From a virus: DNA of 64,000 bases. Where the stretch lies: positions 124,001 to 188,000 of the IMG/VR virus record IMGVR_UViG_3300032245_001860, one strand, 5' to 3'. The position numbers were made by a program, and so were the translations under genes. The notes beneath the pieces were generated by a model that ran no database searches, had not been told where the DNA came from, and was given only the letters and a program-made list of their open reading frames with translations. Positions 6,575 to 24,322 of the stretch are shown here, piece after piece (within the stretch, counting starts at the first letter, position 1; each line of letters begins with the position of its first letter).

Positions 6575-8917
6575 ATGGCAACAAGAAACTCATTGGCATC
6601 AGCAATCAGAACATCAGCATATTCTGTCACTGGTGAATCTGCAAAAGGGTCTGGATTCAATCAAGATCGAAACTATGCAAACAGTAGAATAAATCCTGGT
6701 TTGGGACCGAGTGTCAGACAGGCTCAGTCTATGAACACTGTAACCACTTCTCCAAACTTTTATTCTCCGTTCCTTACCCCTTCATCATTTCAAATCCCAA
6801 ATGCACGAAGAGAAGTTTATCTTTGGGCTAACTGGTGGGTAAATAATGAGCCGAAAGTTGCTGCAGCCATTAACTTCTACACAAACTTTCCATTTTCAGG
6901 TTGGGAATTAGAATGTTCTTCTACATATGTAAAAGACTATTTTGAAAAACTTGTTGAAAAGTTAAACTTCCAAAAATGGCTTCCTCAAATTGCGCACACC
7001 TATTATCTTTTAGGTGATTCTTTTGTTCTTTTATCAATTGAATGCGAGCACTGTAATGGTAGCGGTTGGAATGAAAAGAAGAACGAAGACTGTACTCATG
7101 ATGGTGCGTCTTGGAAATCTATTTCTATCTTAAATCCTGACAGTGTGTTAAAAACCCCAGGAATGCTTGATCAAGAAGGCACTTATGTTTACAGACCAAG
7201 TGCAGAAGAAATTAGAGTTGTCAATGAAAGACAACCTAAAGAAATTTATGACTCAATTCCTGATAGTGTAAAAAGAATGATTTTGAAGGGTGATCCAATC
7301 AAGCTCAATCCTTTATCGATTCACCACTTTAAGCATGGATCAAATCCTTGGGAAGATTATGGAACGTCATTGATCAGACCATTATTTCCTATTCTCACAT
7401 ATAAGGATAAATTGCGTCAAGCTCAGTTTATGATTGCTGATAGATTAATTCTTCCTATCAAAGTTGTCAAAATTGGTTCTGATACTCGCCCAGCATCACA
7501 AGAAGATATTGATGGCGTACAAGATGAACTTGCTGCACTTGCTTCTGATCCTAACCTGACCCTCGTAACCCACCATAACTTTGACCTTGAATGGTATGGT
7601 GCAAATAGTAAGTTCTATGTTGTTACTCCAGAATTTGAAGAAATTAATTCAGAACTTTTAGATGGCTTGATGCTTTCTAAGGCTTTACTTAATGGTGAAG
7701 GACCAACTTATGGAAATGCACAAGTTGGCCTTATGGCAATGGCTCAAAGATTAGAGACATTCAGAAGAGAAGTAGCTCACTGGATTGAATTGAAAATATT
7801 TAGACCAGTTGCTGAGTGGAATGGATTTGTTGTTGAGGGAGAAAGAGGACAAGAAGAGATTATCTACCCAACAATAAAGTTTAATGATTTGCAACTAAGA
7901 GATGATTCGCAAAAACTTCAGATTATGGCTACTGCAAATCAACAAGGTGTTATTTCAAACACTTCGCTAATTGAAGCTTTTGGACTTGATGTTGACCAAG
8001 AAATTGAAAGACTAAGATTTGAACAAGGCGCAAGTTTTATGAAAGAAGGAAACTTTGGTGTTCCAAGTTTCTCTATGAACTTGCAATCAGGACCCGTCAC
8101 TGGGCAGGGTTTTGCAGGTCAACAAGCAGCTCCAGGCGCAGCTCCTCCTGGTGGAATGATGGGTGGAATGCCTGGGATGGAAGCTGGTGGAATGACACCC
8201 CCTATTGCATCATCAAAAGAAGAAAACTATCGTTTAGCATCTATTGTTATTAATCAACTTTACAATGACGCATTAGAAACAAAGAAAGAGCTTTATGGCA
8301 AAAGATATGCCTCAAAAACAATAAAGTCTGCTGCGCATGAAGGATTTATCCAATCAATTATGCCTGTCACTGGTAGAGGTATCCATGGTCCACTTCCTGA
8401 GAAATATGAAGGATTCAATAAAACATTAAGTCCTGAAATTCTTGGTGGTAGTCTTTGCTCTCCATTAAATATTGAAGCTAAATTCGAATATAGACTTGCA
8501 ATGAGTTCAAATGATGAAAATGTAAGAACAGCTTTCAAGCAAAAACAAGAAATGAATCAGCCAAGCTTATATACATCTATTGAAAAGAAACTTTATGGAT
8601 TGTTACTTTCATTAAACATGCCTTATTCTTTATTTGCTCAATACTCTGCAGGACCAACAGGTGATTACACTTTGGATGCAGCTATTCCACAATTGGGCAT
8701 TGGAATAGAAGCTGACGGAGAAATCTGGCATAATAATTTTGACAAGATTGCTAAAGATAAAAAAAGAGATAGTGAATTAGCAAACAATGGATGGATTATC
8801 TTAAGGTTCACAGACAAAGAATTAAATGATCATCCAAATGATGTCTTGAATGTAATTATGCAAGGTATTAGAAAAAGAACAGGACAATCTAATAGCCCAG
8901 AAGAACAAACATTATAA
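6575..8917 (+). CDS. portal protein with C-terminal PD-(D/E)XK nuclease domain
   Basis: 780 aa. Residues about 60-490 have portal character: an N-terminal wing, a long mixed region ending in 'GPTYGNAQVGLMAMAQRLE', and a clip/crown-like helical part; this is the pore through which DNA is packaged. An insertion at 155-176 holds C157, C160, C173 and H175, a likely zinc loop. A Gly/Pro/Met-rich linker follows (505-543). Residues about 545-665 are unassigned. Residues 666-768 match VSR/DUF559-type nucleases: E670, D701 in 'TLDAAIP', E712-A-D714-G, W718-H719, then D728...R731...GW-x-x-L-R. Portals do not normally carry this domain. M540 (ATG 8192) could act as an internal start for the nuclease alone. 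There is no Shine-Dalgarno, but TATAAT sits 7 nt before the ATG. Confidence 0.82.
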   Translation: MATRNSLASAIRTSAYSVTGESAKGSGFNQDRNYANSRINPGLGPSVRQAQSMNTVTTSPNFYSPFLTPSSFQIPNARREVYLWANWWVNNEPKVAAAINFYTNFPFSGWELECSSTYVKDYFEKLVEKLNFQKWLPQIAHTYYLLGDSFVLLSIECEHCNGSGWNEKKNEDCTHDGASWKSISILNPDSVLKTPGMLDQEGTYVYRPSAEEIRVVNERQPKEIYDSIPDSVKRMILKGDPIKLNPLSIHHFKHGSNPWEDYGTSLIRPLFPILTYKDKLRQAQFMIADRLILPIKVVKIGSDTRPASQEDIDGVQDELAALASDPNLTLVTHHNFDLEWYGANSKFYVVTPEFEEINSELLDGLMLSKALLNGEGPTYGNAQVGLMAMAQRLETFRREVAHWIELKIFRPVAEWNGFVVEGERGQEEIIYPTIKFNDLQLRDDSQKLQIMATANQQGVISNTSLIEAFGLDVDQEIERLRFEQGASFMKEGNFGVPSFSMNLQSGPVTGQGFAGQQAAPGAAPPGGMMGGMPGMEAGGMTPPIASSKEENYRLASIVINQLYNDALETKKELYGKRYASKTIKSAAHEGFIQSIMPVTGRGIHGPLPEKYEGFNKTLSPEILGGSLCSPLNIEAKFEYRLAMSSNDENVRTAFKQKQEMNQPSLYTSIEKKLYGLLLSLNMPYSLFAQYSAGPTGDYTLDAAIPQLGIGIEADGEIWHNNFDKIAKDKKRDSELANNGWIILRFTDKELNDHPNDVLNVIMQGIRKRTGQSNSPEEQTL

Positions 8918-8949
8918 GTAGAAATACTTTATAAATTTAGTATATTCGA

Positions 8950-8980
8950 AAAACCCGTCGAATCCGACGGGTTTTGTTTT
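8950..8980 (+). terminator. intrinsic terminator after the portal gene
   Basis: An 11-bp stem (8950-8960 with 8965-8975, loop AATC), GC-rich at its core (CCCGTCG), is followed by a T-rich tract TTTTGTTTT. It is a textbook rho-independent terminator 33 nt after the portal stop. Confidence 0.85.
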
Positions 8981-9071
8981 GTAGGTTTTTAAGGCTTTAA
9001 TGCAGAACTATTTTTATTAGCCTCCATCCATTTATAAGGTGGATATGGATTGAAAAGTAAGGAAAAGTGTA
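8981..9071 (+). promoter_or_regulatory. leader with repeated elements before the protease gene
   Basis: The 91-nt region between terminator and ATG contains TTTAATGCAG (8996-9005) and TTTATAAGG (9031-9039). The same two strings occur in the same order in the leader of the 13421 gene (13329-13338 and 13399-13407). This suggests a shared late promoter or leader element. AAGGA supplies a ribosome site shortly before ATG 9072. The promoter role is inferred. Confidence 0.35.
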
Positions 9072-15756: not shown

Positions 15757-16611
15757 ATGTCAATGATTAAAAGAAATACAAATGAGCAAAGAGAAGCCAT
15801 TATTGCAATGGCTCTCGAGACCCCAGAGGGTCGCACAGCTCTCGCACAAGCCATGGTTGAGCCAATCAAGACTTCCTTGATGTACCAAGCTATTGGTAGA
15901 AAGCTTCTCATGGTTGATGAGCTCCCACAAGGCGCTCTTGCAAGATATGAGAGAGACGTAGCAGTTAAGTCCTATGTCATTCCTAAGAGAGGTGCTGTTC
16001 CATCAGCTGAAGTTGAAGCAGAAGAGCTCATCGTTCCAACAATTGAACTTGCTGCTCATCCTCAAATTCGCTTGAATGAAATCAGACAAAGAAGATTCTA
16101 CATTGTCGATAGAGCTCAAGTCCGTGCTAAGGACTCCCTCCAAAGACAAGAAGATACTGAAGTCTTCAAGGTTATCAACGCAGGTGTTCCAACTGACCAA
16201 TCTATCTCTGTTTCCGGTACCCTCCAACCAGAGAACATTAACCTTGCTCTTACTCTTATTGAAGAGCACGAATTGATTGGTGCTAAGGTTGTTCTTCACC
16301 CACAAAGATACAAAGATATTAGAAACTGGGGCAAGGAATTCTTTGATGAGGCAACTCAAAGAGATATCCTCATGACTGGTCTTTATGGCCACATCTACTC
16401 AGCTGACATCCACGTTTCTACAATGGTTCCTAAGAACTCTGTTTACGTTCTTGCTCCAGCACAGTTCTGTGGTGCACTTCCAGTTCGCCAAGACATTACT
16501 GTTCTCCCAGCAGACGATCCAAAGAGACTTAGACTTGGATGGGTTGTTTATGAAGAGCTCGGATTTGCTCTCATTAACGACTATGCAGTTTCAAGAATCA
16601 CCGTTTCCTAA
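15757..16611 (+). CDS. major capsid protein
   Basis: 284 aa with a strong AAGGAG site. The layout fits a compact HK97-fold major capsid protein: N-terminal helix, an E-loop-like region around 'DVAVKSYVIPKRGAVP', a long spine-helix-like region (residues 135-190), the 'VVLHPQRYKDIRNWG' P-domain segment and a final beta-rich A-domain with 'GWVVYEELGFALIND'. Many CTC, GAG and CGC codons, which are rare in neighbouring genes, indicate codon optimisation for abundant product. It is followed by a very strong terminator and closes the head module. It is short compared with the 350-500 aa usual in large phages. No obvious propeptide is visible. Confidence 0.85.
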   Translation: MSMIKRNTNEQREAIIAMALETPEGRTALAQAMVEPIKTSLMYQAIGRKLLMVDELPQGALARYERDVAVKSYVIPKRGAVPSAEVEAEELIVPTIELAAHPQIRLNEIRQRRFYIVDRAQVRAKDSLQRQEDTEVFKVINAGVPTDQSISVSGTLQPENINLALTLIEEHELIGAKVVLHPQRYKDIRNWGKEFFDEATQRDILMTGLYGHIYSADIHVSTMVPKNSVYVLAPAQFCGALPVRQDITVLPADDPKRLRLGWVVYEELGFALINDYAVSRITVS

Positions 16612-16627
16612 TTTTATATTAGTCAAA

Positions 16628-16663
16628 CAAAAAAAGACCCTTCTTCGGAAGGGTCTTTTTTTT
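16628..16663 (+). terminator. strong intrinsic terminator with UUCG tetraloop
   Basis: An uninterrupted stem AGACCCTTC/GAAGGGTCT, closed by C(TTCG)G and extended by an A run paired with an eight-T run (T56-T63). It lies 17 nt after the capsid stop and would isolate capsid transcription from the following cassette. Confidence 0.95.
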
Positions 16664-16681: not shown

Positions 16682-16710
16682 TTTACAAAAAGTAGTTTTA
16701 AATGTAAAAT
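16682..16710 (+). promoter_or_regulatory. sigma70-type promoter of the sugar/RuBisCO-like cassette
   Basis: TTTACA (16682-16687), a 17-nt spacer and TAAAAT (16705-16710): five of six consensus bases in each hexamer with ideal spacing. The -10 ends 7 nt before ATG 16718, and there is no Shine-Dalgarno, so the transcript may be leaderless. It lies directly after the capsid terminator, which supports an independent unit transcribed by host RNA polymerase. Confidence 0.6.
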
Positions 16711-16717
16711 AAAAAAA

Positions 16718-17434
16718 ATGAATATATTAATTCCTATGGCTGGATTAGGCTCAAGATTTCCAAATTCCAAACTTCCAAAGCCACTTATCAATGTCAATGG
16801 TAAACCTATGATACAAAGAGCAGTTGAATCAATGGGCATTGATGGTAAATTGATTTTCATAACTCGACTTGAACACAATTTTGAATTTCAATTAGATAAA
16901 AAACTTAAAGATTTATTTCCAGATTCCAAAGTCATATCAGTCGATTATTTGACTGAAGGTCCAGCATGTACAGCCATGCTTGCTAAAGATCTAATTGACA
17001 AAGATGAACCATTGATTATAGCAAATTGTGATCAAATAATGAATTGGGACCATGAGACTTTTAATTTATTTTGCAAAACATATCCTCATGATGGTTTTGT
17101 TGTAACTTATTTTGCTAACACTGAAAAAAACAGCTATGTAAATATTCGAAATAATGGATTTGCAAAAGAGTTAAAAGAAAAGCAAATAATTTCCAATATT
17201 TCGACCAATGGGATTCATTTTTGGAAAAAAGGTAGCGATTTTGTACAAAGTGTTATAAGGATGATTGAAAAAAACGACCGTGCACCAAACGGAGAATTTT
17301 ATATAGCTCCATCTTATAATTATCTTATTGAAGAAGATAAAAAAATTGGTATCTATCATATCCCTAACTGTCAACATTGGGCAGTTGGAACAGAAGAAGA
17401 TTTAGAGGAATATTTGAGGATTAATAATGACTAA
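16718..17434 (+). CDS. sugar-phosphate nucleotidyltransferase
   Basis: 238 aa. This is a Rossmann-type NTP transferase that joins a sugar phosphate to an NTP to give an NDP-sugar and pyrophosphate. Visible signatures are the nucleotide loop 'PMAGLGSRF' (residues 6-14), the Lys of 'LPKPL' (K21), 'LTEGPACTA' (78-86) and the metal-binding Asp of 'ANCDQ' (D105). It is the usual length for a single-domain member (about 230-250 aa). The ATG at 16718 is chosen because the protein family begins with the beta-strand 'MNILIPMAG'; the longer frame upstream only overlaps the capsid gene. It overlaps the next gene by 8 nt. It is paralogous to the second half of the 19576 product. Which sugar and which nucleotide cannot be told. 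Confidence 0.85.
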   Translation: MNILIPMAGLGSRFPNSKLPKPLINVNGKPMIQRAVESMGIDGKLIFITRLEHNFEFQLDKKLKDLFPDSKVISVDYLTEGPACTAMLAKDLIDKDEPLIIANCDQIMNWDHETFNLFCKTYPHDGFVVTYFANTEKNSYVNIRNNGFAKELKEKQIISNISTNGIHFWKKGSDFVQSVIRMIEKNDRAPNGEFYIAPSYNYLIEEDKKIGIYHIPNCQHWAVGTEEDLEEYLRINND

Positions 17435-18077
17435 CGATGAAATTATCAAAAACGACTTGGTTGCAGAAATTAGAATGTTTTCTGATGTAGATGACCATGA
17501 CTATAACGAAGATTTTTTTAGAATGAAACACCCTGGTATGCTTCCATGGCCAAAAGGTGGAGTCAAGACAGAATTTAGTGCTTGGAATAGATCTCAATTA
17601 ACTAAACATTTTTTGAAGGTTGCTCCACATGCTAAGGCTATTCTTGAAATTGGAGTTCACAGAAATGGTGAAGATTCTTCTACTTGGTGTTTTTTGAATT
17701 ATAAAAATAAAGACACATTTTATTTTGGTATTGATATTGTTGACAAATCTTTTTTAGATGATGAAGAAAATAATATTTATACTTTACAAGAAAATTCCTC
17801 ATACACAGAAAAGATTATGAAGGTTATTAGATCCAAAGGTATTGAAAAATTTGACTTCATTTTTATCGACGGTAAGCATAGTATCAATCAAGTATTAGAC
17901 GATTGGAAGTTTACTGAATACTTAGCAGATGGTGGTATTGTTGGCTTCCATGATACAAATTGTCATCCAGGGCCAATGTTATTTGTTGATCATCTTAATA
18001 CTGAAAAGTATAATGTTGAAAAGTGCTGTAAAACTTGGCTTGTTGATTATGGTATTTCATTTGTTTCAAGAAAATGA
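17427..18077 (+). CDS. class I SAM-dependent methyltransferase
   Basis: 216 aa. The Rossmann methyltransferase pattern is clear: motif I 'ILEIGVHRNG' (72-81), an acidic end of strand 2 'GIDIVD' (D103) and the Methyltransf_24-like block 'FIFIDGKHS' (D148, H151), then 'GGIVGFHDTN' (H175, D176). Relatives methylate sugar hydroxyls in glycan pathways (rhamnosyl/macrocin O-methyltransferase type); that specificity is inferred from family and from the neighbouring sugar enzymes. The start lies 8 nt inside the previous gene with GAGGA upstream, and its TGA overlaps the cupin start as ATGA. Confidence 0.75.
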   Translation: MTNDEIIKNDLVAEIRMFSDVDDHDYNEDFFRMKHPGMLPWPKGGVKTEFSAWNRSQLTKHFLKVAPHAKAILEIGVHRNGEDSSTWCFLNYKNKDTFYFGIDIVDKSFLDDEENNIYTLQENSSYTEKIMKVIRSKGIEKFDFIFIDGKHSINQVLDDWKFTEYLADGGIVGFHDTNCHPGPMLFVDHLNTEKYNVEKCCKTWLVDYGISFVSRK

Positions 18078-18400
18078 TTATAGATAATATTTCTAACATG
18101 TTCAGAGGCTGGTTCATTGGAAACTTTGAACCAGCTATTTTCAAATCTAAAGATTTTGAAGTTGGAATTCTTTTTCATCCTAAAGGCGAAAAATGGCCTA
18201 AACATTATCATAAAGAAGCAGTAGAAGTTAATGTTTTAATGTCTGGTAGAATGACAATTAATGGAAAACTATTATCATCTGGTAATATATTTCTTATTGA
18301 AAAAAATGAAATTGCTGATCCTGAGTTTTTAGAAGATTGTACAATTGTATGTGTAAAAACTCCATCTATTCCTGGAGATAAATATGAGGTCAAAGAATGA
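18074..18400 (+). CDS. small cupin-domain protein
   Basis: 108 aa, a single cupin barrel. Motif 1 is visible: H44-x-H46-x4-E51 followed by the Gly of 'LMSGRM', which normally forms a metal site. Motif 2 (about residues 76-92) lacks the usual His, so the metal site may be three-ligand. Cupins act as isomerases, epimerases, dioxygenases or lyases. Both ends overlap neighbours by ATGA, placing it in strict coupling with the methyltransferase and the RuBisCO-like gene. In Rhodospirillum rubrum a cupin acts directly after a RuBisCO-like isomerase in methylthioadenosine salvage, a suggestive but unproven parallel. Confidence 0.75.
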   Translation: MIIDNISNMFRGWFIGNFEPAIFKSKDFEVGILFHPKGEKWPKHYHKEAVEVNVLMSGRMTINGKLLSSGNIFLIEKNEIADPEFLEDCTIVCVKTPSIPGDKYEVKE

Positions 18401-19572
18401 TTTTTGTAGATGAAATTGATTCGAATAAATACATCAAAGGTTTTTATTATTTAGAGTCTTCAAAAGGTGTTAGAGATGCAGCATGGAATCTTGCTATTGG
18501 ACAGAGTGTTGGAAATCCATTAGTTAGATTGGAAAGAGAAACAGATGAACTTTTTGCAAATCATTCTTGCGTAGTAAAAAACTGCCCTGATTTAGATGCA
18601 AACTCTGGACGTGTAGAAATTGGTTTCCCAGTATCTAATATTGATTTCGCATCTGACGGTATTTCCCAGTTGCTTTGTTTTCTTATGGGTGGACAATTAG
18701 ATATTGATACCATTGAAACATGCTGGCTTGAAAAGCTAATTATTCCTGACTGGGTAATTGAAAAATATTTCAAAATGCCAAAATTTGGTATCACTGGGGC
18801 AAGAGAGTATACCAAGTCATATGACAAGCCTTTATTAGGCGGTATTTGCAAACCAAAAACTGGAATTAGCCCTGATATTCTTTTAGATATGGTCAAAGAA
18901 ATGGTTGATGGTGGAGTTAATTTTATCAAAGAAGATGAAATTATGGCCAATCCTGAATGCTGTTTGCTTGAAGAAAGAGTTTCTCTTATCTCAGATTACA
19001 TCAGAGATAAGAATGTGGTTTATTGTTTCTGTATTAATTCTGATCCAGCACATATTTTAGAGAGAGTCAAGTTTGTTCATCAAGAAGGTGGAAATGGCAT
19101 CCATATCAATTTCTGGTCTGGCATGGGTGTTTACAAGTCAGTAAGAGAATTGGACTTGCCATTGTTTATGCACTTTCAAAAAAGTGGTGACAAGATTCTT
19201 ACAAATAAAAAGCATGCGTTCCATATTGATTGGAGTGTAATTTGTTATCTTGCTGGACTTATGGGTGTTGACTTCATTCATACTGGAATGTGGGGTGGAT
19301 ATGCAAGTGATGATGAAAATGACCTGAGAAATACTATGAGTATTTTGAATGCAAGAAATGTAGTGCCAGCATTGTCATGTGGCATGCATCCTGGAATCGT
19401 AAACACCATTACTGAAAAGTTTGGCATCAACTATCTTGCAAATTGTGGGGGAGCATTACATGGACACCCAAAAGGAACTGTTGCAGGAGCCAAAGCAATG
19501 AGGCAAGCTATCGACAAAACTTACGGTGAAGAATATTTTCAAGCTATAAATAAATGGGGCCTTGTTCAATAA
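18397..19572 (+). CDS. RuBisCO-like protein (form IV type)
   Basis: 391 aa, close to the normal 400-430 of the family, with N-terminal alpha/beta domain and TIM barrel. Catalytic positions aligned by motif (spinach numbering): K175=K152 and K177=K154 in 'CKPKTG'; carbamylated K201=K178, D203=D180 and E204=E181 in 'GGVNFIKEDE'; H294=H259; H327=H295 in 'FIHTG'; S379=S327, G381=G329; G403-G404=G351-G352 and 'GHP-x-G' (356-360). Lost are R295 (F260), loop-6 K334 (Y302), E60 (G35) and T65 (N40). The metal and enolization apparatus therefore persists without the CO2-handling lysine, so an enolase, isomerase or decarboxylase-type reaction on a sugar phosphate is likely rather than carboxylation. It is coupled to the cupin by ATGA and followed 3 nt later by the HAD-nucleotidyltransferase. 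Confidence 0.9.
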   Translation: MIFVDEIDSNKYIKGFYYLESSKGVRDAAWNLAIGQSVGNPLVRLERETDELFANHSCVVKNCPDLDANSGRVEIGFPVSNIDFASDGISQLLCFLMGGQLDIDTIETCWLEKLIIPDWVIEKYFKMPKFGITGAREYTKSYDKPLLGGICKPKTGISPDILLDMVKEMVDGGVNFIKEDEIMANPECCLLEERVSLISDYIRDKNVVYCFCINSDPAHILERVKFVHQEGGNGIHINFWSGMGVYKSVRELDLPLFMHFQKSGDKILTNKKHAFHIDWSVICYLAGLMGVDFIHTGMWGGYASDDENDLRNTMSILNARNVVPALSCGMHPGIVNTITEKFGINYLANCGGALHGHPKGTVAGAKAMRQAIDKTYGEEYFQAINKWGLVQ

Positions 19573-19575
19573 AGC

Positions 19576-20940
19576 ATGCTAAAGCTTGTTGTTTTTGATT
19601 TAGATGGAGTTTTAGTTGAAGCAAAAGAAATTCATTTTGATGCTTTAAATTCTGCATTGAAAAATGTTGATGAAAAATATGTCATATCTTGGGAAGAACA
19701 TCTCAGAACATATGATGGCTTGAAAACATATGACAAACTAAAACTCTTATCTGAATATAAGGGTTTACCACTTGATAAGAGCATTCAAGAAAAAATATTT
19801 AATGATAAACAAATTTTCACAACAAGAGCACTTAATGATCTTCAAAAAAATCAAAAACTAATCGATATTTTTACCAAGTTAAAAGAAGAAAATTTCAAAA
19901 TAGCTTGTTGTTCAAATTCTGTAAAAAATACAGTGGATTTAGTTCTTGATAAGCTTGGCATTGATAAGTTTTTTGACTTAAAATTATCAAATGCAAATGT
20001 AAAATTTGCTAAACCTCATCCAGAAATCTATTGGAAAGCAATGTCTTATTTTGGAGCATTACCTGAAGAAACATTGATTATTGAAGATTCTCCTACTGGG
20101 TTAACTTCAGCATATAAATCTGGAGCTAAAGTATTAAGAGTAAAAGATCCTAATGATTATGATTTTGATAAAATACTTTCATCTTGCAATTCTGTAAAAC
20201 AAAATATTGAAAAATGGGCTGATCAAAAAATGAATGTAATTATTCCAATGGCTGGTCATGGCAGTAGATTTTCTCAAGCTGGATATACATTTCCCAAACC
20301 CTTAATAGAAGTACATGGTAAACCTATGATTCAAGTTGTTATAGATAACTTGAAAGTAGATGCTCATTTTATTTTCATTGTTCAAAAAGAACATAGAGAA
20401 AAATATAATCTTGATTCTATGCTTTCTTTATTAGCTCCAGGTTGCGATATTGTAGATGTAGATAAAGTAACAGAAGGAGCTGCTTGCACTGTATTATTAG
20501 GTAAAGAATTTATCAATAATGACAATCCTCTGGTAATAGCTAATTCAGATCAATTTGTAGAATGGAGTAGTTTAGATTTCTTTTACAAAATGAACGAACA
20601 AAACTTAGATGGTGGTATTGTTTCTTTTAAATCAACACATCCCAAATGGTCTTATGCAAAGGTAGATAGTCAGGGGTTTATTTTAGAAGTAGCTGAAAAG
20701 AAAACTATTTCTGATATTGCTACAGTAGGAATTTATTACTGGAAAAAAGGATCTGATTTTGTCAAGTATGCAGAACAAATGATTGATAAAAATATCAGAG
20801 TAAATAATGAGTTTTATGTATGTCCTGTTTATAATGAAGCTATTTTAGATGGACTTAAGTTTAAAACATTTGATGTGCCAAAAATGTGGGGGCTTGGCAC
20901 ACCTGAAGATTTAGATTATTACTTGGAAATGAATAAATGA
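19576..20940 (+). CDS. HAD phosphatase / sugar nucleotidyltransferase fusion
   Basis: 454 aa, two domains. Residues 1-210 form a HAD hydrolase of the beta-phosphoglucomutase/phosphatase type: motif I 'FDLDGVLV' (D8, D10), motif II S113 in 'CCSNS', motif III K146 in 'FAKPHPEIY', motif IV 'IEDSPTG' (E170, D171). Residues 219-454 are a nucleotidyltransferase: 'PMAGHGSRF' (224-232), 'FPKPL' (K241), 'VTEGAACT' and 'ANSDQ'. The second half is plainly paralogous to the stand-alone enzyme at 16718. The fusion suggests that dephosphorylation or mutase action and nucleotidyl transfer act on the same intermediate. It overlaps the next gene as ATGA. Confidence 0.85.
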   Translation: MLKLVVFDLDGVLVEAKEIHFDALNSALKNVDEKYVISWEEHLRTYDGLKTYDKLKLLSEYKGLPLDKSIQEKIFNDKQIFTTRALNDLQKNQKLIDIFTKLKEENFKIACCSNSVKNTVDLVLDKLGIDKFFDLKLSNANVKFAKPHPEIYWKAMSYFGALPEETLIIEDSPTGLTSAYKSGAKVLRVKDPNDYDFDKILSSCNSVKQNIEKWADQKMNVIIPMAGHGSRFSQAGYTFPKPLIEVHGKPMIQVVIDNLKVDAHFIFIVQKEHREKYNLDSMLSLLAPGCDIVDVDKVTEGAACTVLLGKEFINNDNPLVIANSDQFVEWSSLDFFYKMNEQNLDGGIVSFKSTHPKWSYAKVDSQGFILEVAEKKTISDIATVGIYYWKKGSDFVKYAEQMIDKNIRVNNEFYVCPVYNEAILDGLKFKTFDVPKMWGLGTPEDLDYYLEMNK

Positions 20941-21809
20941 AAAGACTAACTGCTATTTACTGGGTCAAGAATGAAGCAAGATATATTCCTGAGTGGATAG
21001 AATTTCACTTGATGCAAGGATTTGAACATTTTATACTTTATGATAACAATTCTACTGATGGAAGTCAAGAAATACTACGACCATATATTGATGCTGAAAT
21101 TTTGGAATTAAGATCATATCCAGCAGAAATGAAACAGAGATGTCTAAATAGGCCTTTAGGGGCAAAAAACTATTGGGTGGCTGAAACATGTATGCTTGAA
21201 CAAAGAAAGAAGTCAGACTGGCTTCATTTTCATGCTGTAGATGAATTTACATACTGCCCAGATGGTACAGACTTGAAAGATTTTCTTACAGAGTTTGATA
21301 AGTATGGTGGGCTTTCAGTTTGTTGGCAATGTTATAACTCAAATGGACATATAAATAGACCTGAAGGACTTGTAATTGAAAACTACAATGTGAGAGTCCC
21401 AGATCCAATGTGTCATGTTAAAACATTCCTTAAGGTTGGTCGTGCTAAGCAAACTTGTGGATCTTTGCACAATTGGGAATATATTGGAAACTATCAATCA
21501 GTCAATGAAAATCATAAACCTGTAGTGGGATCATTTTGTCCAGATGATTTTTCCTTCAATAGAATAAGAAATCATCACTATGTAACTATGTCTCGTGAAG
21601 AATTTGATATCAAGACAAATAAAGGTATTTTAGATTCAGCTTGGGCAGAAAACAGAAGAAGGCATAATTATGATTATCAATTTGATGATTACAATAATAG
21701 AGAACATATCTTCGATGATATTCTAAAACCTTGGGTACCTAAAGTAAAAGAAGCTATTATGAAAAGGTATCACACTAATAAAGATTTTTTACCTTTAATA
21801 AATCATTAA
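20937..21809 (+). CDS. glycosyltransferase (GT92/DUF23-like)
   Basis: 290 aa. The first 45 residues carry the signature of the GT92/Glyco_tranf_2_4 group: 'WVKNEARYIPEWIEFH' (10-24), then 'FILYDNNSTDGS' (32-43). An acidic site follows at 'AVDEF' (D102, E103), where relatives have D-x-D-E-F. It would transfer a sugar from a nucleotide-sugar donor to an unknown acceptor. It is the last gene of the plus-strand cassette, linked by ATGA to the HAD-nucleotidyltransferase, and ends at a bidirectional terminator. No signal peptide or membrane segment is seen, so it should act in the cytoplasm. Confidence 0.75.
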   Translation: MKRLTAIYWVKNEARYIPEWIEFHLMQGFEHFILYDNNSTDGSQEILRPYIDAEILELRSYPAEMKQRCLNRPLGAKNYWVAETCMLEQRKKSDWLHFHAVDEFTYCPDGTDLKDFLTEFDKYGGLSVCWQCYNSNGHINRPEGLVIENYNVRVPDPMCHVKTFLKVGRAKQTCGSLHNWEYIGNYQSVNENHKPVVGSFCPDDFSFNRIRNHHYVTMSREEFDIKTNKGILDSAWAENRRRHNYDYQFDDYNNREHIFDDILKPWVPKVKEAIMKRYHTNKDFLPLINH

Positions 21810-21845
21810 ATATAAACCCATCGAAATCGATGGGTTTATATTTTT
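21808..21845. terminator. bidirectional intrinsic terminator
   Basis: A 17-bp near-continuous inverted repeat (core CCCATCGA/TCGATGGG) is flanked by T-rich tracts on both strands. It lies between convergent genes ending at 21809 (plus) and 21836 (minus), and the stem includes the last codons of the minus gene. It closes the cassette. Confidence 0.9.
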
Positions 21846-22816
21846 GCGACAGAAGCTCCATCAAAATCAAATTTAAAATTGAAAGGCTTGTTATTGTAAA
21901 ACTTTTGTTTGATTTTATTCTGAGCATATGAATCAGCAAAAAGCATCATAAAGCCCCCACCACCAGCTCCTAATATTTTTCCTCCCTTAGCTCCACAAAG
22001 CTTAGCTTCTTCATACATTTCATTGATTTCTAAATTAGAAATATCATCTGACACTTCTTTTTTAAGTTGCCAAGAATAATCAAGCATTTCACCAAAGTGT
22101 GTTAGATCTTTTTTAATTAAGTTAATTTTAAATTGTTGAGCTAATTCAACCATGGTTTTTATATTCTGAAAACTTTTATCATTATCAATCATTCTTTTGC
22201 TTTGATTTTTAAGAATGTCGTCAGCAGATCTACCTTTACTTGTATGCAGCAATATGAGGTTATTTTCAAGATATTCTATAGTATCTTCATCTAAAGTTAT
22301 TGTATTAGTTGAGACACCTCTATCAGCAAATTCATGAACATTGAATCCACCATAAGAACAAGCGTATTGGTCTTGTTTTCCAATAGGCTTTTTACATAAA
22401 TTAATTTCTATGATACAGGCTAACTCTGCCAATGAACCTTTACTTAGTATCTCTTCTGAATATTTATAATTTTCTATTGCTTTGATTAATCCAACAGCGA
22501 AAGCACTTGAAGCACCCATTCCTGTTCCATTGGAGGGTAAGTCGGAAATAGAGGCTATTTCGATACCATTTGTAATATCAAAATACTTCAAGGTATGTTT
22601 TACGATGTCATGCTTTAAGTCATCTAAATTATTGACATTTTCTGTAATAGAATAGCTCAATCTAATGGAATCATCAAACTTTTTATTCAATGATATATAT
22701 AAATACTTATTTATAGAAGCAGAAACGACCATTCCAGGGCTTTGGTTGTAAAAAGAAGATAAATCAGAACCGCCCCCAAAAAAACTTATTCTAAATGGAG
22801 TTTTACTTACTATCAT
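21836..22816 (-). CDS. GHMP-family sugar kinase (HddA-like)
   Basis: 326 aa. The N-terminus 'MIVSKTPFRISFFGGGSDL' is characteristic of heptose/fucose-type GHMP kinases such as D-glycero-D-manno-heptose 7-phosphate kinase. The ATP loop 'PSNGTGMGASSAF' lies at 94-106 and the C-terminal 'GAKGGKILGAGGGGFM' motif is present. It would phosphorylate a sugar or sugar phosphate at the anomeric position, supplying a nucleotidyltransferase. The ATG at 22816 is preferred over an upstream TTG because family members begin exactly here. It is the only minus-strand gene of the sugar region and is divergent from the glycosyltransferase at 22839 across a palindrome. Confidence 0.85.
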   Translation of the reverse strand: MIVSKTPFRISFFGGGSDLSSFYNQSPGMVVSASINKYLYISLNKKFDDSIRLSYSITENVNNLDDLKHDIVKHTLKYFDITNGIEIASISDLPSNGTGMGASSAFAVGLIKAIENYKYSEEILSKGSLAELACIIEINLCKKPIGKQDQYACSYGGFNVHEFADRGVSTNTITLDEDTIEYLENNLILLHTSKGRSADDILKNQSKRMIDNDKSFQNIKTMVELAQQFKINLIKKDLTHFGEMLDYSWQLKKEVSDDISNLEINEMYEEAKLCGAKGGKILGAGGGGFMMLFADSYAQNKIKQKFYNNKPFNFKFDFDGASVAKI

Positions 22817-22841
22817 ATGACTATTGTACAATTAGCATATG
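22814..22841. promoter_or_regulatory. palindromic divergent start region
   Basis: The two divergent ATGs are separated by only 22 nt. CATATG occurs at both ends (22814-22819 and 22836-22841) exactly symmetric about a perfect 10-bp palindrome ATTGTACAAT (22823-22832). The palindrome yields TACAAT, a good -10, on both strands, each 6 nt before its ATG. This implies two overlapping, probably leaderless promoters and perhaps a dimeric regulator site. Symmetry is seen; function is inferred. Confidence 0.45.
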
Positions 22842-23651
22842 AGAAACGCAATTATTACATACGCTCAAGGTAATGACTTTGTAGAAACATTAGATTCTGA
22901 AATTTTCTTAAAAAATCTTAACAAACATAAAACATTTAGGAAATATTGTTTTACAAAAGACCTCAATCAAAAGAACTTAGATATGTTGAGTAAATATTTT
23001 GATGAAGTTTTTGTTTGCTCAAATCCTATTTACAATAGTGCAAGAGATAGATTTATGTCTTATTACTTATGGATGATTGATAATTATAAAAATTTTGACA
23101 AAATTATGCATTTGGATTTTCGAGATATAGTTATTCAAAAAGATCCATTTGAGTTTATGAATAATCATTGGGACAAAGATATTTTTGTAGTGTCTGAAGG
23201 TATGAAAATTAAAGACAACTATTGGAATAAAATGGATATGACTTATTTCAATAACACTCAAATCCAATTTCATAAAGATGATTTTTCAGATTATTATGTT
23301 ATTAACGGTGGGACTATTGGCGGTAATATTTTTCCTCTTTCGCAATTATTTTTGATGCTTTGGGTCAACAGCAATAGAAACAGTCAATCAAATACTGACC
23401 AAGCTACATTAAATTACTTATATCCTTACCTCAAAGCTAACCCAAAAGTTATGGTATGCCATCCTCTTGAAGACAATTTTTGTGCTACTGGAGAGGGAAT
23501 TAAGTATGGTAATGTGCCAGTAAAATACAATGACACTCAAGTTGCAGATCAAAATTATGAAAACTATTATATTTTTCATCAGTGGGATAGAACAGAAGTT
23601 GCAGATAAAATTAGACAAAAACAAAAGGAATCTTTGTCTTTTGTGATTTAG
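22839..23651 (+). CDS. probable glycosyltransferase
   Basis: 270 aa. The arrangement resembles nucleotide-diphospho-sugar transferases of GT-A fold (GT8/DUF616-like): a first strand 'AIITYAQGND', a conserved middle 'DKIMHLDFRDIVIQKDPF' in which D93 and D96 take the place of the metal-binding D-x-D, and a later 'YVINGGTIGG' acceptor-side motif. The family is recognised at fold level only. There is no Shine-Dalgarno; a TACAAT -10 lies 6 nt before the ATG. It follows the sugar kinase divergently and precedes the NlpC/P60 gene, so it belongs to the glycan region. Confidence 0.65.
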   Translation: MRNAIITYAQGNDFVETLDSEIFLKNLNKHKTFRKYCFTKDLNQKNLDMLSKYFDEVFVCSNPIYNSARDRFMSYYLWMIDNYKNFDKIMHLDFRDIVIQKDPFEFMNNHWDKDIFVVSEGMKIKDNYWNKMDMTYFNNTQIQFHKDDFSDYYVINGGTIGGNIFPLSQLFLMLWVNSNRNSQSNTDQATLNYLYPYLKANPKVMVCHPLEDNFCATGEGIKYGNVPVKYNDTQVADQNYENYYIFHQWDRTEVADKIRQKQKESLSFVI

Positions 23652-23686: not shown

Positions 23687-24322
23687 ATGTGGTACAAAAA
23701 AGCATTTATTCAATCAGAATTTTGGAACGAAGAGAAAACTAACGACCCAAAATCTTTGAAGGATGCTTTTTTTGGCGTCATAACAGATTCTAAAACAAGA
23801 ACCAATGATCCATATAAGATTTTTGGCAATCTAAAAACTTACAAAAACAAAGTACTTAATGAATCTCCAGAAATGACACAAGAAATAGAACAATCTTTCA
23901 ATGATGCTGTAGATTCATTAAAATCAGAATTTCCAGACTTTAATGAAAGCTCTAATAATGCTTCTGGTAATTGGCTTGAAATAGCTGAAAGTTATCTTGG
24001 CACTCCATATAAATTTGGTGGAGATGATGAAAGAGGTATTGATTGCTCAGCTTTCATTCAAAAAGTATTTCCAGATTTACCAAGAACTGCGAACGAACAA
24101 ATGAAAGTTGGTTCTGATGTCCCTATTGATGATATTTCTCAATGGCAGCCGGGAGATAGAATTTATTTTGATATGAATGCAAGATTAAGATCTGGAGACG
24201 CAGACCATACTGGTATTTATTTGGGAAATAATGAATTTATTCAAGCTTCATCAAGCAAAGGTGTAGTAAAGACACCTATCAATAATTTCTATGAACAAAA
24301 AATCATTGCTGTAAAGAGATAA
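23687..24322 (+). CDS. NlpC/P60 cell-wall endopeptidase
   Basis: 211 aa. The C-terminal domain (residues 95-211) is NlpC/P60: catalytic Cys in 'GIDCSAF' (C120), His in 'DADHTGIYLG' (H174) and a third polar residue near 'EFIQAS'. The preceding 'GTPYKFGG' is typical. These enzymes cut peptide crosslinks such as gamma-D-Glu-diaminopimelate. Residues 1-90 are a helical extension starting MWYKKAFIQ, resembling the start of the protein at 6051, and could be a virion-targeting or cleavable peptide. No signal peptide is seen, so it is either a virion-associated lysin delivered at entry or part of the lysis set. It ends 1 nt before the convergent tail genes. Confidence 0.85.
   Translation: MWYKKAFIQSEFWNEEKTNDPKSLKDAFFGVITDSKTRTNDPYKIFGNLKTYKNKVLNESPEMTQEIEQSFNDAVDSLKSEFPDFNESSNNASGNWLEIAESYLGTPYKFGGDDERGIDCSAFIQKVFPDLPRTANEQMKVGSDVPIDDISQWQPGDRIYFDMNARLRSGDADHTGIYLGNNEFIQASSSKGVVKTPINNFYEQKIIAVKR

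Follow-up and report, generated by a model that had tools for sequence, protein, structure and literature searches.

What does a homologue of the RuBisCO large subunit do among the sugar genes of a giant phage? The window analyzed here, a stretch of 64,000 nucleotides, comes from a 316-kb record of a giant bacterial virus, in which a sugar cassette is located 3' of the major head protein gene. The cassette comprises six genes on the same strand encoding a sugar-phosphate nucleotidyltransferase (NT), a methyltransferase (MT), a cupin, a RuBisCO-like protein (RLP), a fusion of a HAD phosphatase with a second nucleotidyltransferase (HAD-NT), and a GT92-type glycosyltransferase (Table 1). Matches to Pfam and PHROG models agree with the six gene identities given by a first-pass annotation of the same DNA, and the open reading frame boundaries reproduce the junctions it listed: an 8-nt overlap between NT and MT, 4-nt overlaps between MT and cupin and between cupin and RLP, a 3-nt gap between RLP and HAD-NT, and a 4-nt overlap between HAD-NT and the glycosyltransferase gene. 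The location after the capsid gene is likewise confirmed by the match of the upstream gene to phrog_2522 (5e-67).

Table 1. Features of the sugar cassette and its flanks, with positions counted in the window.
Feature	Position	Strand	Evidence and remarks
Major head protein gene	15757..16611	+	phrog_2522 5.4e-67; context, 5' of the unit
UUCG-loop terminator-like hairpin, 3' of head protein gene	16629..16662	+	TTCG loop, 15 pairs
Sigma70-like promoter TTTACA-17-TAAAAT	16682..16710	+	10/12, joint best; weak evidence
NT, sugar-phosphate nucleotidyltransferase, conserved core	16718..17434	+	phrog_3980 4e-59
MT, class I methyltransferase, variable companion	17427..18077	+	Methyltransf_24 4.2e-7
Cupin, small, one domain, conserved core	18074..18400	+	Phage cupin family phrog_24762 4e-35; cupin fold
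RLP, cassette core	18397..19572	+	RuBisCO_large PF00016 6e-33, 114.8 bits vs cut-off 30.1
HAD-NT, HAD phosphatase (beta-phosphoglucomutase-like) fused to second nucleotidyltransferase	19576..20940	+	HAD_2 1.5e-25, NTP_transferase 1.1e-11, phrog_3980 4e-81
Glycosyltransferase, GT92 / GT2-like	20937..21809	+	Glyco_transf_92 3.1e-19; also Glyco_tranf_2_4
Bidirectional terminator-like hairpin	21808..21843		16 pairs
GHMP kinase, HddA-like, convergent neighbour	21836..22831	-	GHMP domains; HddA model 157 bits vs cut-off 600
Putative glycosyltransferase-like gene	22839..23651	+	Sequence inspection alone; retained in L002 (60%)

The six genes had also been described as a self-contained, moron-like unit bounded by its own transcription signals. 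Both terminator-like hairpins named there are present and convincing: of the 6 hairpins detected (2.9 ± 1.7 expected), none scored higher than these two. The proposed sigma70 promoter exists as well, but it is weak evidence, because this AT-rich stretch contains 47 such sites against 34 ± 6.7 expected. Its -10 box ends 7 nt 5' of the NT start codon, and an mRNA starting there would therefore be almost leaderless. The terminators and the position lend the moron reading partial support. However, the same core was found at other positions in other phages, and the unit is therefore better described as a cassette that recurs inside the sugar clusters of phages. No relative with an empty insertion site was found. 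In L002, the closest relative, whose head protein is 97% and whose RLP is 92% identical, a related variable gene set occupies the same place, in the order NT-MT-MT-cupin-RLP-methyltransferase-GDPD.

The idea of a six-gene unit had to be abandoned, since the HAD-NT and GT92 genes are missing from L002 and only NT-cupin-RLP is widespread. This RLP occurs in at least 297 viral loci, and neighbourhoods were counted in the 55 distinct ones whose flanks are long. Genes for NT (54/55), cupin (46/55), a small GDPD-like protein (43/55) and MT (20/55) were found near RLP; the cupin was not detectable in 9 of the 55 loci. In 40 of them, the cupin and then the NT gene lie directly 5' of RLP, and gene density within 3 kb of RLP exceeds that farther away about 40-fold for NT and about 150-fold for the cupin. 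Thus, the conserved unit is NT-cupin-RLP, with its order kept across many phages. A kinase adjoining RLP is not a general feature of the loci, and a search of the window phage with the L002 copy as query, run without a positive control, found no GDPD-like gene. None of 50,697 isolate phage records contained this RLP.

The RLP has the large-subunit homology and the fold that characterize form IV proteins: its AlphaFold model (pLDDT 92.6) best matches the type III RuBisCO 3a12 with a TM score of 0.89. Active-site residues were mapped by aligning a sequence profile with type III RuBisCO, not by superposing structures, and their conservation was read from alignments A1 and A4, with uniformity referring to 43 sequences. 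The RLP retains K175, K201, D203, E204, H327, S379, G381, G403 and G404, among which the metal/carbamate triad K201-D203-E204 corresponds to the invariant K178, D180 and E181 of the phage protein. In 43/43 sequences, H294 is replaced by Gln261, R295 by Lys262, K334 by Tyr302, E60 by Gly35, T65 by Asn40 and W66 by Pro41, and in at least 90% N123 is replaced by Gln100. With H294, R295, K334 and others replaced, carboxylation is therefore very unlikely. The RLP is a form IV RuBisCO homologue in which the metal/carbamate site is intact and residues required for carboxylation are absent. Its dN/dS relative to L002 is ~0.04, and the residue pattern indicates a site that is specialised, not decayed.

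The protein does belong to PF00016, and viral 'rbcL' genes have previously been listed under CO2 fixation: an AMG of landfill megaphages groups with 'RbcL-like' proteins, and random IMG/VR viruses also showed this function (PMC12607003). Nevertheless, it is extremely improbable that the RLP gene serves carbon fixation as a genuine auxiliary gene: K334 and H294 are lost clade-wide, the type III model scores 155.5 bits against a cut-off of 497.45, which places the protein outside bona fide RuBisCOs, and no Calvin-cycle neighbours occur in the loci examined. Carbon fixation was rejected on the active-site losses, and a viral 'rbcL' gene that belongs to this clade is no sign of carbon fixation. 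In a quick tree, the phage RLPs formed one clade, which a long stem (2.85 changes per site) separates from all sampled cellular RuBisCOs and RLPs. The Global Ocean Sampling study reports 65 environmental sequences in new groups of RuBisCO homologues clustering with no known RuBisCO; the passages describing them give neither gene context nor viral origin (PMC1821046).

Cyanophage NT-cupin cassettes without RLP usually contain an RpiB isomerase domain (PF02502, 3.9e-32) fused to the NT, and related Synechococcus phages have a form with NT-RpiB, PfkB and a KdsC-like HAD protein in place of RLP. In Synechococcus phage Bellamy, this domain is part of gp206. The RpiB domain is present in 39 of 48 Bellamy-type NT-cupin loci and RLP in none, whereas 54 of 58 window-type loci contain RLP and none RpiB; no locus in either set has both. 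This exclusivity tracks two lineages of the cupin, and common descent could account for the split. An isomerase or epimerase role is favoured for RLP: RpiB stands in its slot in Bellamy-type loci, and the RLP of R. rubrum, a sugar-phosphate isomerase paired with a cupin enzyme, is a precedent (PMC4958253). The enzyme would use the first step common to RuBisCOs, proton abstraction leading to a metal-bound enediolate, and would thereby convert a phosphorylated sugar into an isomer or epimer. Among other RLPs there are enolases and decarboxylases, and isomerisation is therefore not the sole option.

As a decarboxylase, the RLP would act on a keto sugar acid phosphate in the manner of OiaX, shortening the sugar acid before nucleotide activation. 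OiaX and the acid-sugar RLPs share the RuBisCO superfamily with the phage protein and act on phosphorylated sugar acids; the OiaX model is among the better-scoring specific models (131.4 bits), and of the named plasmid-borne relatives tblastn places OiaX-type and archaeal RLPs closest (~28-31% identity). We regard this reaction as unlikely, with the OiaX score far below its cut-off of 700, a separate phage clade on its own stem, and the RpiB replacement pointing to isomerisation. In addition, the sampled acid-sugar RLPs adjoin aldo/keto reductases or four-carbon acid sugar kinases, which are not neighbours in the window.

A methionine-salvage module (MtnW-MtnD or the MTA-isoprenoid shunt), with an RLP enolase or isomerase, a cupin and merely incidental sugar genes, would account for the pairing of RLP with an adjoining cupin. 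This is the exact pair of the MTA shunt of R. rubrum, where the RLP is a sugar-phosphate isomerase acting in sequence with a cupin enzyme, a methylsulfurylase (Rru_A1998/A2000; PMC4958253). There, however, the context is salvage, whereas the most constant partner of the phage RLP is the NT (54/55), not a salvage gene, the remaining neighbours are glycosyltransferases and epimerases, and no salvage genes were recognised among the neighbours examined. The MtnW models gave 123.6 bits for a cut-off of 409 and 93.4 bits for one of 513.6. A salvage module is a very doubtful explanation. Membership in the MtnW and OiaX families was rejected, as the scores are under the cut-offs.

Returning to sugar isomerisation, we think that the product of the cassette is probably an unusual sugar or polyol, activated with a nucleotide and then transferred. 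The surroundings of RLP homologues, rich in nucleotidyltransferases, epimerases, glycosyltransferases and methyltransferases, agree with the earlier proposal of a RuBisCO-like core in a sugar-activation and transfer set, although its six genes are not a fixed unit. Downstream of RLP in the proposed pathway, the cupin (H44, H46 and E51 invariant in alignment A2) would perform a second isomerisation or epimerisation or bind the product. The NT, whose nearest solved structures are 4evw (a nucleoside-diphosphate-sugar pyrophosphorylase) and enzymes of the 6-deoxy-mannoheptose pathway, would add a nucleotide to the resulting sugar, the methyltransferase and HAD-NT fusion may vary or complete the product, and the glycosyltransferase would move the sugar onto a protein of the virion or a glycan on the host surface. 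In gene content the unit matches phage surface-polysaccharide modification clusters, which combine sugar-activating enzymes with glycosyltransferases: NT, HAD-NT and GT92 in the window, epimerases and glycosyltransferases in relatives.

RuBisCO homologues with known reactions function in carbon fixation, nucleotide or methionine salvage, and acid-sugar breakdown. The chances are about even that the virus-specific branch catalyses a reaction new for any homologue, in which a sugar phosphate bound for nucleotide activation is isomerised, epimerised or altered in its carbon skeleton, and that phages thereby gain a sugar absent from their hosts' own repertoire. A large RLP branch that is linked to sugar activation and has so far been seen in phages would extend the roles of RuBisCO homologues to surface-sugar biosynthesis and would offer a clear enzyme for assay. 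If this reading is true, the cassette is a widespread phage route to altered virion or host surface sugars.

Similar gene sets are known from jumbo cyanophages, and a role in changing the surface of the host has been proposed for their capsular-polysaccharide modification clusters (Iyer et al. 2021, PMC7824862). In these clusters, as in the window, the phage encodes NDP-sugar synthesis, with genes for cupins, nucleotidyltransferases, kinases, methyltransferases and glycosyltransferases, but RuBisCO is unmentioned in the text of that paper. Polysaccharide loci of Rhodobacterales (Ruegeria and Roseinatronobacter plasmids) contain a HAD-NT-cupin-NT arrangement with GDPD-like, WavE and glycan genes; their cupin, flanked by two NT genes, is homologous to the phage cupin (42-45% identity), but in contrast to the phage cassette these loci are without RLP. 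An end product other than a surface glycan, namely a small molecule or a DNA modification, is suggested by one phage clade, in which a kinase, a DHQ-synthase-like cyclase, an SDR and a radical-SAM gene 3' of RLP resemble cyclitol or secondary-metabolite chemistry. We consider such a product improbable, given that most loci are dominated by glycosyltransferases and sugar epimerases and that the related Rhodobacterales loci hold WavE, flippase and O-antigen ligase genes.

Searches of 84,980 species genomes and of 395 Bacteroidota genomes gave no convincing copy of the cassette in a cell. The larger set was searched with exact peptide patterns, which miss diverged relatives, and gave a sole match, the 3.3-kb contig L055; it alone among the 395 Bacteroidota genomes matched the phage profile at E ≤ 1e-40. 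The listed proteins of L055 match the viral contig L041 over the stretches shown, and L055 is therefore probably viral DNA that was placed in a bin. RuBisCO-family genes occur in 125 of the 395 genomes, and none of the 20 loci inspected (9-17 kb around) had NT, cupin or GDPD-like neighbours. Within the reach of the exact-pattern search and the Bacteroidota sample, a bacterial origin was rejected on this absence and on the probably viral nature of the lone match.

The GDP-D-glycero-D-manno-heptose pathway (GmhA, HddA, GmhB, HddC) was rejected, as the 316-kb record, which may be incomplete, has no match to the GmhA isomerase (SIS_2) and the HddA and HddC models score low (157.2 against 600 and 20.7 against 300, respectively). 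On the 3' side of the cassette, the putative glycosyltransferase-like gene matched no Pfam family. The convergent GHMP kinase is possibly the kinase of the pathway, and a homologue with 54% identity is retained in L002.

The unit in the window consists of a sugar-phosphate nucleotidyltransferase (NT), a methyltransferase, a cupin, a RuBisCO-like protein (RLP), a HAD-NT fusion and a GT92-type glycosyltransferase, and the window spans positions 124001-188000 of a virus record of 315,852 bases. ORF boundaries bear out the gene overlaps and gap listed in the first-pass annotation, and family searches upheld its family assignments and confirmed the preceding capsid gene as a major head protein (phrog_2522). 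The terminators proposed at both borders correspond to two strong terminator-like hairpins enclosing the unit. The proposed sigma70 promoter exists as a site, but such sites are often expected by chance in the window; if it is used, the NT mRNA would be leaderless or nearly so. The peptidase encoded after the unit is possibly a cell-wall or tail-associated enzyme.

Coordinates of the features discussed, in the window or in the retrieved locus (L) named
Feature	Sequence	Position	Remark
Six-gene unit	window	16718-21809	
NT mRNA start, if the predicted promoter is used	window	16705-16718	
HddA-like GHMP kinase and adjacent glycosyltransferase-like gene	window	21836-23651	kinase on minus strand
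NlpC/P60 peptidase gene	window	23687-24319	directly after sugar genes
383-residue gene	L002	1311-2462	between head protein and NT
Gene set following RLP	L034	11217-13902	
gp206	L135 (Bellamy)	7847-9001	annotated phosphatase
Genes flanking cupin	L139	7258-9070	annotated glycosyltransferase family 2
Genes flanking cupin	L140	7256-9085	annotated glycosyltransferase family 2

A single-sequence search with the RLP returned 52 viral loci, and a profile search 297, from which 80 were kept. After collapsing RLPs at least 95% identical and requiring at least 4 kb of flank on each side, 55 distinct loci were compared. NT was found near the RLP in 54/55, cupin in 46/55, a small GDPD-like gene in 43/55 and methyltransferase in 20/55, with the order NT-cupin-RLP in 40 of the 55. 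NT homologues occur at 0.168/kb near the RLP versus 0.004/kb elsewhere in the same contigs, and cupin homologues at 0.147 versus 0.001/kb. In the window, this set is extended locally by the HAD-NT fusion and the GT92 gene. DNA polymerase, UvsX-like recombinase, DnaB-like helicase, PhoH, baseplate wedge and virion structural proteins are encoded near the cassettes, in records of up to 518 kb; since phage replication and virion genes adjoin them, these contigs represent phages. The phage cassette is real, conserved and unusual. One clade (L029-L039 and L112-L122) carries, after the RLP, genes for a fructosamine-kinase/APH-like kinase, a DHQ-synthase-like cyclase, an SDR and a radical-SAM protein, which may constitute a phage cyclitol pathway.

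The nearest relative of the window, L002, shares the cassette position and the flanking GHMP kinase, with identities of 97% for the head protein, 92% for RLP, 76% for cupin and 64% for NT. The RLP comparison (dN 0.058 versus dS 1.41) indicates strong purifying selection. The L002 cassette differs in having two methyltransferases, another methyltransferase-like gene and a GDPD-like gene. The HddA-like kinase and its glycosyltransferase-like neighbour also border the unit in L002 (54% and 60% identity), although the intervening genes differ. The 383-residue gene of L002, where the window has only a terminator, perhaps encodes a homing-endonuclease-like protein, judged by inspection only.

The predicted RLP model (pLDDT 92.6) best matches a type III RuBisCO (TM 0.89), and the protein scores far under the cut-offs of known RLP models. 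Active-site residues were mapped by profile alignment, and their conservation was assessed in sets of 16 and 43 sequences. The RLP retains catalytic Lys175, the metal/carbamate site Lys201-Asp203-Glu204, and H327, S379, G381, G403 and G404. In 43/43 sequences E60 is replaced by Gly, T65 by Asn, W66 by Pro, H294 by Gln, R295 by Lys and K334 by Tyr, and at least 90% carry Gln at the N123 equivalent. These assignments derive from sequence profiles and our reading of spinach numbering, and are least certain for loop 6 (K334). In a quick maximum-likelihood tree, 42 phage RLPs form a single group (support 100, stem 2.85 changes per site), although the long branches leave deeper joins unsure.

Isolate relatives of the cupin and NT are present in Synechococcus phages. 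In phage Bellamy, a single gene, gp206, encodes NT together with a fused RpiB-type sugar isomerase domain (PF02502), despite its annotation as a phosphatase. The locus further holds a PfkB-like kinase, a HAD phosphatase, which we read as KdsC-like, a cupin and a GDPD-like gene. When distinct viral loci with flanks were compared, those with a Bellamy-type cupin contained RpiB in 39/48 and RLP in 0/48, whereas those with a window-type cupin contained RLP in 54/58 and RpiB in 0/58. This suggests that the RLP occupies the slot of an isomerase; shared descent may contribute to the split, since the loci were collected by way of two different cupin lineages.

Gene content, gene order, active-site pattern and phage setting form the demonstrated part of our working model. 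The chemistry common to RuBisCO homologues begins with removal of a proton, which yields a metal-bound enediolate; when the carboxylation residues are missing, isomerisation, tautomerisation or decarboxylation follows. A pairing of RLP and cupin is known from R. rubrum, where an isomerase step precedes that of the cupin enzyme (PMC4958253). Based on this chemistry and precedent, we propose that the phage RLP isomerises or epimerises a sugar phosphate. Phosphomannose isomerases are among the cupins that match the fold of the phage cupin, which may therefore perform a second isomerase/epimerase-type step, while NT would be the activating enzyme. In the window's phage, the HAD domain and the neighbouring GHMP kinase could form a kinase/phosphatase pair, but RLP cassettes do not generally come with a kinase.

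The RLP was carried by no isolate phage in the records searched, and no convincing cellular genome with it was found among the genomes searched. The sole genome match, L055 (DORI01000002.1), was binned in a Crocinitomicaceae MAG, but is probably a viral contig, as the protein stretches shown for it match viral contig L041. RuBisCO-family genes occur in 125/395 Bacteroidota genomes and are distant from the phage RLP, and the cassette partners were absent from 20/20 such loci inspected. As Bacteroidota was the one phylum sampled by this route, 'found only in phages' holds for what was searched. Other RuBisCO-family groups, with proteins of about 375 and 436 residues (L153-L172), are common in Bacteroidota and likewise lie far from the phage RLPs.

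Phage sugar clusters that combine cupins, kinases, nucleotidyltransferases and glycosyltransferases have been described, with a proposed role in altering the host surface and no mention of RuBisCO (PMC7824862). Viral RbcL-like genes were noticed earlier and placed under CO2 fixation (PMC12607003), and ocean data had revealed unplaced RuBisCO groups (PMC1821046). No paper linking RLPs to phage sugar cassettes was found in the open-access literature; subscription journals lay mostly outside the search, leaving priority uncertain. The cassette belongs among the known phage sugar clusters, and the RuBisCO superfamily is likewise known; the superfamily branch at the centre of the cassette is new. 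Rhodobacterales plasmid polysaccharide loci have GDPD-like, HAD, NT, cupin and NT genes, but lack the RLP. In L139 and L140, the genes flanking the cupin look like nucleotidyltransferases, which Pfam confirmed for one of them, and a hypothetical protein beside them resembles GDPD.
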